35,966 nt of DNA from Nitrospinaceae bacterium (GTDB lineage Bacteria; Nitrospinota; Nitrospinia; Nitrospinales; VA-1): assembly GCA_029261515.1 (NCBI GenBank), contig JAJDBE010000125.1, positions 1-35,966 of the forward strand, given 5' to 3'. Every line of letters starts with the position of its first letter. Within the stretch, counting starts at the first letter, position 1. Below, one piece after another: positions 4,593 through 7,902 of the stretch. A program made the position numbers and the translations under genes. The notes beneath the pieces were generated by a model, which did not search any database, had not been told where the DNA came from, and saw only the letters and a list, made by a program, of their open reading frames with translations.

Positions 4593-4973
4593 TTAAGGGG
4601 TGGAAATTGACGGGTCTTTGGCTTCCAGGGCTTCGACCAGACTGAGGGTCGCCCGCAAGCGTTTGGCAAGAACTTTGAGGATCGGCATGAGCGCCTGGGG
4701 ATTCTGTTCCGCCAGCGAATCAAACGCTTCCTGGGTGAGAACGGTTATGGTGCAGTCTTCCAGAGCCACGACGTTGCAGGAACGGGGAAGTCCGTCGATC
4801 AGCCCCATTTCCCCGAAAATATCGTTCTCCTTGAGGGTGCCGACGGCTTTTCGCTCTCCGTCGGGATTCGATTTTGAAACCTCGACCGAACCCGATTCGA
4901 TGATATAGGCGCAGTCACTCGCCATCCCTTCGTGGATGATTTCATCGCCTTCTTTAAAAAACAGTGTTTTCAT
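4593..4973 (-). CDS. Stand-alone cyclic-nucleotide-binding (cNMP) domain protein
   Basis: A 126-residue protein that is almost exactly one CRP-type beta-barrel. It opens with LFFKEGDEIIHEG and continues with AYIIESGSVEVSK, then the phosphate-binding-cassette region NDIFGEMGLIDGLPRSCNVVALEDCTI, where FGEMGLIDG and PRS are the typical ligand-contact residues. A C-terminal helix follows (QALMPILKVLAKRLRATL). There is no HTH after the domain, so it is not a CRP-like transcription factor in itself. Such free domains act as sensors or adaptors for separate partners. It is on the same strand as trhP, with about 175 bases between them. The presence of the GE and PRS residues suggests ligand binding is possible, but the nucleotide is unknown. 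Confidence 0.8.
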   Translation of the reverse strand: MKTLFFKEGDEIIHEGMASDCAYIIESGSVEVSKSNPDGERKAVGTLKENDIFGEMGLIDGLPRSCNVVALEDCTITVLTQEAFDSLAEQNPQALMPILKVLAKRLRATLSLVEALEAKDPSISTP

Positions 4974-5167: not shown

Positions 5168-5854
5168 TCACCCCCCCTCACAATCCGGGGAAACGGCAAA
5201 CCCCTGTGCCTTTGCCTCAAGCTTGCTGGAAAAAACCGCAAACCCCTTTCCCTGCCGGGGATAATTCCGGCAAGCCGGCCAGAGATAAATTTTACTTTCC
5301 AGGTTTCCGATCAGGCCGTAACTGAAAATCCGATCGTAATCCACTTCAGAAGGGTTTTCAGGTGGGTCTTCCAATGTGTTGTCGCGCCGGAACTGCCAGG
5401 GAGGAATCGGGGCAGGCTCTACCCAGAATCCGATATTCTTCCTCCAGGCCTGGTATTCCAGCTCCCGCAAGCGTTCGTGCGAAGGATAATGCACTCGGTA
5501 ATGCCACGCCAGCCCGTGCCGCACCAGCTCATCGTTCAAAACCTGCCCACCCGGCAGGCGGACAATGCCGATCAACCGCCGGTATTTGTCTACAGTTTCG
5601 TATTCCACCGTCACCTGTTTTGCAAAAACCAGGTCATACGTAAACTGCCGGGCCTGTCTGCCGATGGTTTGCGGCATTTCCGGTGCATCGATCTCCCGCA
5701 AACGGACTTTAAAAAATTGCGCCCCGGTGGTTTGAATGGTCAGCATATCGCCATCCAGCACCTCCACCACGGTTCCCTGCAATGACACCGCAAAAATATT
5801 ACCGGGAGACAACATCAAGCAGATGAAAACGAAGATTGTTTTTAGTACGTGCAT
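5168..5854 (-). CDS. Secreted staphylococcal-nuclease-like (SNase/TNase) protein
   Basis: A 228-residue exported protein. Residues 1-22 form a signal peptide (MHVLKTIFVFICLMLSPGNIFA, cleavage after Ala). The SNase domain spans about 25-140: QGTVVEVLDGDMLTI, then VRLREIDAPEMPQ with the catalytic Arg and the metal-binding Asp and Glu, and LVRHGLAWHYRVHY carrying the second conserved Arg. The C-terminal segment NLESKIYLWPACRNY resembles the short SKxYxxPxCxxY motif often fused to bacterial SNase domains. The product would be a periplasmic or extracellular phosphodiesterase acting on DNA or RNA. It lies 39 bases downstream of an HTH-HATPase regulator on the same strand and is probably co-transcribed with it. 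The low-complexity C-terminal tail after about residue 205 is unassigned. Confidence 0.85.
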   Translation of the reverse strand: MHVLKTIFVFICLMLSPGNIFAVSLQGTVVEVLDGDMLTIQTTGAQFFKVRLREIDAPEMPQTIGRQARQFTYDLVFAKQVTVEYETVDKYRRLIGIVRLPGGQVLNDELVRHGLAWHYRVHYPSHERLRELEYQAWRKNIGFWVEPAPIPPWQFRRDNTLEDPPENPSEVDYDRIFSYGLIGNLESKIYLWPACRNYPRQGKGFAVFSSKLEAKAQGFAVSPDCEGG

Positions 5855-5893
5855 GCTATCGCGCCCACTTCAAGCACTTGCAGAATAAAAGAA

Positions 5894-6958
5894 TCACACC
5901 GGGGAGACCGCTCCGGTCAAAGGCCCGAAAGAATCCGGCAGGCTTTTTTCAATCATGAAGCGGACGTTTTCGTTGGCGTTGACCGAATCCACTTCGATTT
6001 CCGGGTGACTCGATTTAAACACCCGGAACACTTCGTCCACAAACGCCTGTCCTACCGTGGCAACATGTTTAAAATCCAGCACCACCCGGCGGAATTTTTC
6101 CACTCCCAAAAGCACCCGTTTGGCCTGTGACCGGGAAACATAATGCTCCTCTTCCAATTTGCTGAGCTGAACGCGAATTTCAGTTGTGTCCAATAGCGGG
6201 AGTTCCGATTCCGTCCGGCTGAAAAAATTGACCACATCGCCAAGCGTCCGTTTCGTATCGAAGCGGATAGCCATCGAAACTTTGGTTCCCTTGGACTTGT
6301 CCCTTTTCCTGCGCTCTAAAAACCAGTCGTCCTGAAGATTGTCCTTGCAATAAAACAGACCTTCGGAAAATAGACCGAAGACATCAAAGACGCGCGAGGT
6401 GAAAAAAAGACCTTCGCCGGAATGCCGCTCAGGGTCGGTGGTGAATTTTCCCTTTGATAAATGCAGCACCCCCTCACGTTCATCGGCAAGATCGAGCGCG
6501 TTTTGTATTTTGCGGAAAATTCCAATGCCGTCGTCGATGATATTGAGCTCCAGAGAATCTTTTTTCCAGACGGTCTTCACCACCACGCCCTTGCCTTCCG
6601 AATGCGTGAGCGCGTTGTTGAAAATCTCCGCGAATCCGTAAGCGCAGATTTCAAGGACCGGATCCGGCAAACCGGAAAACTCGTCCTGTAGATATTCCTG
6701 CCAAACGGCGTCTTCTTTCAGCCCCGGTTGAATTTCGAAAATGAGGGTTTTATCGAGAGAGTTTTTGAGGAAATAGGTGGCGCCGCGCGTGGTGCCGGTG
6801 CGGATGATTTTCTTGTCTTTCAGCAGCCGGTCGAGATGCCGGTGCACCGTCATGCGGGTGACCGCAAATGCCTCCGAAGTGATCGCCACGATGTCCTTGG
6901 GATGCCTGGGGATATTCTCTAAAAGGTAGGATCGTATTTCCTGAGCCCGGCTGGCCAC
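5894..6958 (-). CDS. HTH - HATPase (anti-sigma-like kinase) - STAS-like fusion regulator
   Basis: A 354-residue three-part protein. I start at GTG 6958: AGGAGA (6971-6966) sits 7 bases upstream, and an in-frame TTG at 6988 falls inside the predicted -10 box. Residues 1-60 form a winged-HTH-like domain (TRMTVHRHLDRLLKDKKIIRTG). Residues about 75-240 form a GHKL ATPase of the anti-sigma/HisKA type: N-box EIFNNALTHS (111-120), DDGIGI (142-147), and the HSGEGLFFTSRVFD lid (from 179). Residues about 255-345 look like the STAS-like DUF4325 domain (RVLLGVEKFRRVVLDFKHVATVGQAFVDEVFRVF). Partner-switching systems normally keep the kinase and the STAS antagonist on separate proteins, with DNA binding elsewhere; here all three are fused. 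It probably regulates its own operon with the downstream SNase gene. The domain reading is confident; the signal and target are unknown. Confidence 0.8.
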   Translation of the reverse strand: MASRAQEIRSYLLENIPRHPKDIVAITSEAFAVTRMTVHRHLDRLLKDKKIIRTGTTRGATYFLKNSLDKTLIFEIQPGLKEDAVWQEYLQDEFSGLPDPVLEICAYGFAEIFNNALTHSEGKGVVVKTVWKKDSLELNIIDDGIGIFRKIQNALDLADEREGVLHLSKGKFTTDPERHSGEGLFFTSRVFDVFGLFSEGLFYCKDNLQDDWFLERRKRDKSKGTKVSMAIRFDTKRTLGDVVNFFSRTESELPLLDTTEIRVQLSKLEEEHYVSRSQAKRVLLGVEKFRRVVLDFKHVATVGQAFVDEVFRVFKSSHPEIEVDSVNANENVRFMIEKSLPDSFGPLTGAVSPV

Positions 6959-6987
6959 GATATGGTCTCCTGCAATTTTGGCAACCA

Positions 6988-7017
6988 ATTATAACTCATA
7001 ATAAAGTATTTTATCAC
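6988..7017 (-). promoter_or_regulatory. Candidate promoter for the HTH-HATPase-SNase operon
   Basis: Minus-strand GTGATA (7017-7012), an 18-base spacer, and a perfect TATAAT (6993-6988). The start of transcription would fall near 6980, just ahead of the AGGAGA ribosome-binding site, giving a very short leader. This geometry is part of why GTG 6958 is taken as the start codon. Confidence 0.5.
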
Positions 7018-7099
7018 TATTTTTTGGGCCCATAACGACTGCGATCCGGGGTGAGCCCTCAGCCTTCACAACACCTAATGTATTACACGAAGTAAAAAA

Positions 7100-7126
7100 A
7101 TAACTACTTATAATATAGATAGTTAT
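7100..7126. promoter_or_regulatory. Inverted repeat ATAACTA-N13-TAGTTAT, candidate operator
   Basis: Perfect 7-bp arms (7100-7106 and 7120-7126) with a 13-base AT-rich spacer, between two divergent promoters. Dyad spacing of this sort fits a dimeric DNA-binding protein. The neighbouring HTH-HATPase protein is the obvious candidate, but that is inference. Confidence 0.35.
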
Positions 7127-7267
7127 ACTGAACATAATAAAAAGAGGGTTTTCCAGTCAGGCAAAATTTTCCCAAATTCCTCCACCACCCTCCCACCATC
7201 ACTCCGCAGTAGGTTTTGTTGGCAAAATCAGATAAATAAAAAAATACCCATAAACTTAAAAAAACTA

Positions 7268-7296
7268 TTGACGTTAAAATTATATGTAATTATACT
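7268..7296 (+). promoter_or_regulatory. Strong sigma70-type promoter of the His-rich protein gene
   Basis: TTGACG (7268-7273), exactly 17 bases, then TATACT (7291-7296). Each hexamer differs from consensus at one position. Transcription would start near 7303, about 60 bases before the ATG. This is the best promoter match I found in the window. Confidence 0.7.
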
Positions 7297-7362
7297 TATA
7301 AAATCCGGTGCAGGCCCCGCTGGATGAGATGAGTGGAGGTATCATAAATTTGGAGGTGCGGC

Positions 7363-7902
7363 ATGAATATGAAAACATCAGCGGTTATCATTTCAGGCAT
7401 TCTTTTCCTTCTCGGAACCAGTTCCCAGGTTTGGGCCGGCCCCAAATACTCGGGAAGTCATCACGGTTATACCGTCCATGAAACGCACACAACGGTGACT
7501 CGGTCCTACGACGATTGTCCCGATGACAGGCACTACCGCCATCGTCATCACCGGCACCACTACAATCACCACAACAAACATCATCGCCCGCATCACTGGA
7601 AACATCATAGATCCGGACACGGTCATTCCCATGCCGCTCCCCGGCATTATTATGAAGAGCGTGTTTACTATCAGGCGCCGGCTCCGCAACCGTATTATCA
7701 GCCGGCACCCCAGCATTACTCCTCCGGCTATAACGGCAACGCCCTATCCGAAACGATTGTTGGCGGCGCCTTAGGCGCGGCAGCAGGAGCCGCCATTGGC
7801 GCGGTGGTGGGTGAACCCGCAGACGGAGCCGCCATTGGCGCAGTCGTTGGCGGATTTGGCGGCATCAGCCGCGGTATTTTAGGCCGTGGATTACTCTGGT
7901 AA
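7363..7902 (+). CDS. Secreted His-rich protein with C-terminal glycine zipper
   Basis: A 179-residue exported protein. ATG 7363 is preceded by GGAGGTG. Residues 1-25 are a signal peptide (MKTSAVIISGILFLLG, cleavage likely after VWA). Residues about 50-95 are extraordinarily rich in histidine with Arg and Tyr (YRHRHHRHHYNHHNKHH, then HHWKHHRSGHGHSH), a composition suited to binding Zn, Ni or Cu. Residues 95-125 are Tyr/Pro/Gln-rich (YYQAPAPQPYYQPAPQHY). The C-terminus has a glycine-zipper motif (GGALGAAAGAAIGAVVGEPADGAAIGAVVGGFGG broken into two near-identical GAAIGAVVG units), which in other proteins mediates membrane insertion or oligomerisation. It is probably an envelope-associated metal-binding or stress protein driven by a strong promoter. 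I know of similar architectures without a settled function. Confidence 0.8.
   Translation: MNMKTSAVIISGILFLLGTSSQVWAGPKYSGSHHGYTVHETHTTVTRSYDDCPDDRHYRHRHHRHHYNHHNKHHRPHHWKHHRSGHGHSHAAPRHYYEERVYYQAPAPQPYYQPAPQHYSSGYNGNALSETIVGGALGAAAGAAIGAVVGEPADGAAIGAVVGGFGGISRGILGRGLLW

Follow-up and report, generated by a model that had tools for sequence, protein, structure and literature searches.

A winged-helix, GHKL ATPase and STAS-like fusion protein with phased repeats at its own promoter: a probable stand-alone autoregulator

Anti-sigma kinases like SpoIIAB and RsbW bind a sigma factor and phosphorylate a STAS antagonist. The protein described here, called REG, has the GHKL fold (HATPase_c_2) and its boxes in common with these kinases, which are also its closest structures. 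Unlike them, REG joins this fold to a winged helix-turn-helix (HTH) and to a STAS-like domain, its conserved neighbours include neither a sigma factor nor a STAS gene, and a kinase role is only putative. The antagonists SpoIIAA and RsbV can be compared with the C-terminal DUF4325 domain of REG, which Pfam describes as STAS-like. Unlike the antagonists, REG has no Ser/Thr at the expected phospho-site, and has SRSxAKR and GQ[AG]FxDE motifs instead.

Phased direct repeats are familiar from iteron and parC-type systems, where plasmid proteins that regulate their own genes (RepA/RepE, ParR) bind them. Here too there are direct repeats with an 11- or 22-bp phase, by or over the promoter of the putative binder's gene, and sometimes on both sides of it. 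Unlike these systems, REG is a single chromosomal or predicted-prophage gene of GHKL-STAS-like type, it comes without a replication or partition partner, and its binding is predicted. The MarR, ArsR and GntR autoregulators similarly combine a winged HTH with an operator over their own promoter. They differ in having one dyad where REG has a tandem phased array, and a ligand or metal pocket where REG has ATPase and STAS-like domains.

The REG gene studied here lies in a stretch of 35,966 nucleotides from a Nitrospinaceae bacterium, called the window below (G000:C125 in the genome set). The reading we favour, and hold to be likely, is that REG is a stand-alone autoregulatory transcription factor that binds a phased array co-operatively and is probably nucleotide-gated. 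The features are listed in Table 1.

Table 1. Features of the window, and upstream repeats at REG loci elsewhere.
Feature	Position or locus	Strand	Details and basis
REG gene	5894..6958	-	354 aa from probable GTG 6958; ORF, Pfam, AF2, Foldseek, 46-sequence alignment
Winged helix-turn-helix domain	6734..6949	-	About residues 14-85; AF2 secondary structure, PDB profile matches
GHKL ATPase domain	6266..6715	-	About residues 92-241; N, G1, G2 boxes and GT pair
DUF4325 STAS-like domain	5933..6187	-	About residues 268-352; Pfam, conserved motifs
Shine-Dalgarno-like AGGAG	6967..6971	-	8 nt upstream of GTG 6958; read from sequence
Exported SNase-family nuclease gene	5168..5854	-	Pfam SNase E 2.2e-19, signal-like N-terminus; ancestral-synteny neighbour
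Operator-like direct repeat TAGTGATAA-13-GAGTTATAA	6989..7019	-	22-bp spacing; aligns with relatives' operator/promoter
Inverted repeat ATAACTA-13-TAGTTAT (dyad)	7100..7126	.	Read from sequence
Repeats of TAGTTATAA	L154		Spacings 22, 21, 22, 23 bp
Repeats of GTTTAYAATA	L155		Spacings 21, 22
Repeats like AAGTTGTA	L156		Spacings 21, 22
Repeats of GTTGACA	L160, L161, L164		Spacings 23-24 and 11
Repeats of GGTTKACAA	L210		Spacings 22, 22, further on 23
Repeats of AGTTTCWAA	L211		Spacings 22, 22
Inverted pair ACAACTTT-18-AAAGTTGT	L058, L158, L159, L213		

The reading frame is open over 5894-6988 on the minus strand and would give 364 aa if counted from TTG 6988; residue numbers below follow that count. 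GTG 6958 is the more likely start, because of the AGGAG upstream of it and because homologues begin at the aligned position. An earlier note on this DNA had placed the system at 5168-7017. The genes are indeed there, but given the likelier GTG start the end at 7017 takes in promoter DNA.

The same note had proposed an HTH, a GHKL ATPase and a STAS-like domain in a single chain, and Pfam, AF2 and Foldseek agree on this. DUF4325 (PF14213) matches residues 288-342 with an E-value of 4.7e-12 and 45.9 bits, where the curated cut-off is 23. HATPase_c_2 and HATPase_c match residues 97-203 with E-values of 4.6e-5 and 7e-5, a score just under the Pfam cut-off (23.9 vs 27.4). The HTH is faint in Pfam (GntR, E 0.12) and clear in the AF2 model (H14-25, H33-41, H45-57, wing 61-74). 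That model, with a mean pLDDT of 91 and a pTM of 0.81, has winged HTH, GHKL and beta-alpha STAS-like parts, and its best Foldseek matches in the PDB are structures of SpoIIAB (1til, 1l0o, 1tid; target TM-score 0.72-0.76). A profile built from 46 homologues matches MarR/ArsR/SlyA-type winged helices and GHKL kinases in the PDB. By model and profile matches REG has a winged-helix fold, with which it is predicted to bind DNA.

The boxes of the ATP site are intact: E121, N124, N125 and H129 in the N-box, D152, G154 and G156 in G1, H189, G191 and G193 in G2, and the pair G234/T235. N125, H129, D152, G154, G156, H189, G191, G193 and T235 do not vary at all across the 46 homologues. As the N, G1, G2 and GT residues vary little or not at all, the ATP-binding residues have not been lost in homologues, the outcome that the earlier note had named as evidence against its proposal. 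Residues and model together point to a SpoIIAB-like GHKL domain with the Bergerat fold, with predicted ATPase activity.

The architecture is not special to this locus. At E<=1e-20, a three-domain protein of about 340-375 aa is present in 41 of 387 sampled genomes. At least 13 families of bacteria beyond the window's class have it, as do 27 IMG/VR contigs, which are predicted viruses or proviruses. Given these counts of genomes and contigs, the HTH-GHKL-DUF4325 architecture is already visible in databases, and widespread; we found no published study of it. Of the function of DUF4325 we found no description in the literature, only passing mentions. The PHROGs match of REG is a family of unknown function. 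Searching phage and plasmid records by tblastn with REG and an IMG/VR homologue gave no match, and a wider search of seven genomes in the phylum of G189 added nothing.

No conserved partner gene emerged when the neighbours of 47 homologues were clustered and each downstream gene was read, nor was any neighbour seen to be common across lineages.

The resemblance to SpoIIAB, and the STAS-like label of DUF4325, make a partner switch an obvious thought. The GHKL domain would then act as a serine kinase, with the STAS-like domain of its own chain or a free DUF4325 protein as substrate, and this phosphorylation would govern the HTH or a sigma factor. Free DUF4325 proteins of about 120 aa do exist, about two in most Nitrospinota genomes, and in the alignment of homologues the domain has invariant T269 and S285, along with R286, A289 and R291. 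We nevertheless think it unlikely. SpoIIAA and RsbV carry their phosphoserine where helix alpha 2 begins, and the REG position there, 315, is Ala or Gly in 45 of 45 homologues, an equivalence set by motif and predicted secondary structure and not by superposition. Because of this helix-start residue, classical STAS phospho-switching by REG is unlikely, and the phosphorylation-controlled switch of the earlier note is not supported. Nor is a sigma factor, a phosphatase or another GHKL gene among conserved neighbours.

What is conserved in the domain are the motifs SRSxAKR, of which SR..A.R is invariant, and DF......GQ[AG]F.DE. The SRSxAKR motif is perhaps the more plausible point of contact with the nucleotide site. 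The beta-alpha order of the C-terminal domain in the AF2 model fits STAS, and no STAS structure is among the whole-chain Foldseek matches listed. An AF2 model of the DUF4325 domain alone, from one-sequence input, came out all-helical and was discarded. The genome of the window itself has two solitary DUF4325 genes of about 120 aa, at 6269-6625 of L177 (C37) and 6650-7015 of L178 (C72), and no GHKL neighbour was seen beside either.

The reading of REG as an autoregulator comes from the DNA upstream of its gene. In most Nitrospinota relatives this DNA has direct repeats of TAGTTATAA at a 22-bp phase. Outside the nearest genus, most relatives have 4-8 TAGTTATAAT sites per upstream region (at most one mismatch), where dinucleotide shuffles give means of 0.02-0.5, and the spacing is mostly exactly 22 bp. 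An inverted site pair often stands beside the start codon and overlaps the promoter. At L049, for example, the inverted operator overlaps a TTGACA-17-TATAAT promoter (12/12). The sites of the nearest genus (L035-L039) have diverged by drift.

These arrays are nearly confined to the REG gene. Among 32 genomes searched for the two-site pattern (at most two mismatches), 18 of the 19 that have REG show it at the REG promoter, as against one of the 13 without REG, where the match is isolated and has two mismatches (G005). Away from REG there are three further isolated matches, also with two mismatches each (G016, G028, G038). G007, which is 98% complete, has two single-site matches, both at REG. 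On this sequence evidence REG has, as an autoregulator would, a conserved site at its own promoter that is hardly seen in genomes lacking the gene. We found no description of such a phased array for REG in the literature.

A dispersed regulon was considered and set aside: the exact single-site 10-mer is rare, with no clear enrichment away from REG in genomes that have it, and paired sites are essentially at the REG gene alone. One built on weaker single sites may exist. As it stands, this is a regulator with itself as sole detectable target, and so with no obvious output.

In the window the array is degenerate. The repeat over 6989-7019 has one mismatch per site, and there is no pair at 8/9 with 22-bp spacing. 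It overlaps a promoter-like GTGATA-18-TATAAT (7017-6988). The dyad that the earlier note had picked out is present, and TAGTTATAA with a single mismatch is found at 7105-7113 and again at 7120-7128. Across the whole window, seven sites have no more than one mismatch. Five of these fall in 6989-7301, and the last of the five is within the divergent gene's promoter. Self-regulation through the upstream DNA, suggested from the dyad, is supported, and the arrays in relatives are far stronger evidence for it than a single dyad.

The divergent gene, at 7363, has a promoter-like TTGACG-17-TATACT at 7268-7301. The same stretch holds the box TATAAGTATAATTACAT, with similar boxes in L036, L038 and L039.

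Distant homologues and predicted prophages have repeats of their own. These are lineage-specific in sequence and similar in phase (Table 1). A motif-free test asked whether any 9-mer recurs, with at most one mismatch, at an offset of 21-23 bp within 145 bp upstream. It does so for 19 of 34 distant REG genes, against 15 of 216 control promoters of other genes of the same loci. The p-value of 9e-11 is only indicative, since starts were machine-called, the tolerance of +-1 was set once the per-offset table had been made, and certain loci are related to each other; the 22-bp offset itself had been fixed from Nitrospinota data before the distant set was tested. Other offsets are near background in the distant homologues, and almost half of these genes have no clear 21-23-bp repeat by the 9-mer test.

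The pattern GTTGACAATNNGTTGACAAT gave seven matches in 28 genomes, all at the REG loci of six genomes that have REG, and none in 13 genomes without it. The later loci L210, L211 and L213 have 22/22-bp repeats or a 26-bp inverted pair. For the inverted pattern with the 18-bp spacer, only matches at REG with 0-1 mismatches were used, because two mismatches are too loose for genome-wide specificity. In some lineages the repeats include TTGACA or TATAAT, and part of the signal could therefore be duplication of promoter elements.

In some genomes the elements stand on both sides of the gene. At L160, L161 and L164 (G189, G289 and G147, from three families), a three-site element of 41-43 bp lies upstream and again directly downstream, in the same orientation, with identities between the two copies of 98%, 88% and 93% respectively. 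The spacers of this element differ among genomes and largely agree inside one genome. The inverted operator of L058 likewise lies to either side of its gene. Direct repeats across the gene were found for 6 of 42 REG genes and 3 of 282 control genes (p 2e-4). Such flanking elements could serve looping, or could be a relic of tandem duplication or a trace of mobility. L155 and L165 have the same hairpin sequence, terminator-like, upstream and downstream of REG. At L047 (G061:C47, 7402-8842) a partial second copy with the C-terminal 106 or so residues follows the full gene after a gap of 74 bp.

It has to be considered that REG is a semi-mobile or selfish gene, whose repeats mark where a small cassette, mobile or tandemly duplicated, ends on either side and are not usual operators. 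Its distribution is patchy, it is present in predicted prophages, the flanking copies at these six loci (L155 and L165 included) fit, and so does the second copy in G061. REG has no nuclease or recombinase domain, though, and its repeats have direct rather than inverted orientation; those of Nitrospinota are upstream only, in conserved synteny, and essentially no paired sites turned up elsewhere in the genome. We regard a cassette as very unlikely.

The earlier note was right that the gene beside REG encodes an exported SNase-like protein. It lies 39 bp away on the same strand, and the two genes are adjacent in 19 Nitrospinaceae genomes, the window's own among them, as are the other genes of the block. 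But three genomes (G002, G012, G029) keep the SNase-cNMP-U32 block with SNase in place and without REG, and G003 has REG and SNase on separate contigs. Conversely, G007 has REG without SNase, and no SNase neighbour was found beside four homologues in f2, a second family of the same order (G049, G051, G059, G061), or beside distant homologues in other phyla. Because SNase stays in the block without REG, and REG occurs elsewhere without SNase, the pairing is, going by gene order, inherited synteny, and the functional pairing that had been proposed is not borne out by the neighbourhood survey. With a pairing that is not obligate, and no PADLOC match of REG to a known anti-phage defence system, a dedicated two-gene operon of REG and nuclease under REG, for example in DNA scavenging or defence, is most improbable, adjacency in one family notwithstanding. 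Given a gap of only 39 bp, co-transcription is plausible in the window; read-through from the REG promoter would make SNase, in Nitrospinaceae, a passenger and no more.

Within the same block, the cNMP-binding gene is single in the window (4593-4973). In related genera, the versions of the block at L040, L043, L045, L046 and L055 have it in two to three tandem copies.

For REG as a stand-alone autoregulator, the following mechanism may be proposed. The winged HTH of each protomer would bind a short site of GTT..AA type, which in Nitrospinota is TAGTTATAA. As 22 bp is two helical turns, several protomers would be aligned on one face of the DNA. An array of protomers over and upstream of the gene's own sigma-70-type promoter would then repress or tune it co-operatively. 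The SpoIIAB-like GHKL domain would bind ATP, with the STAS-like domain as built-in partner, and the nucleotide state would set the contact between protomers and with it the occupancy of the operator.

That REG itself binds the array is inferred, and so is control by ATP. Its effect is presumably repression rather than activation. The weakest step of the explanation is the putative contact between GHKL and STAS-like domains.

A more specific version is that the GHKL and STAS-like domains drive an ATP-dependent head-to-tail assembly on sites phased at 11 or 22 bp, which can lie to both sides of the gene. This would be a widespread class of one-gene switch derived from a partner switch, which may loop its own gene, and which has not been described. 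We offer this version tentatively, as a possibility that is rather doubtful.

The autoregulatory element itself is, by its sequence, real, general to the REG family and, as far as we could find, undescribed. It offers a first concrete way into the HTH-GHKL-DUF4325 fusions of many bacterial lineages, which so far are without a known role. Each REG homologue gains a predicted DNA target, with a sequence and a phase. If it is true that ATP governs the assembly on the phased array, an anti-sigma-kinase fold would have been turned into a DNA-bound switch.
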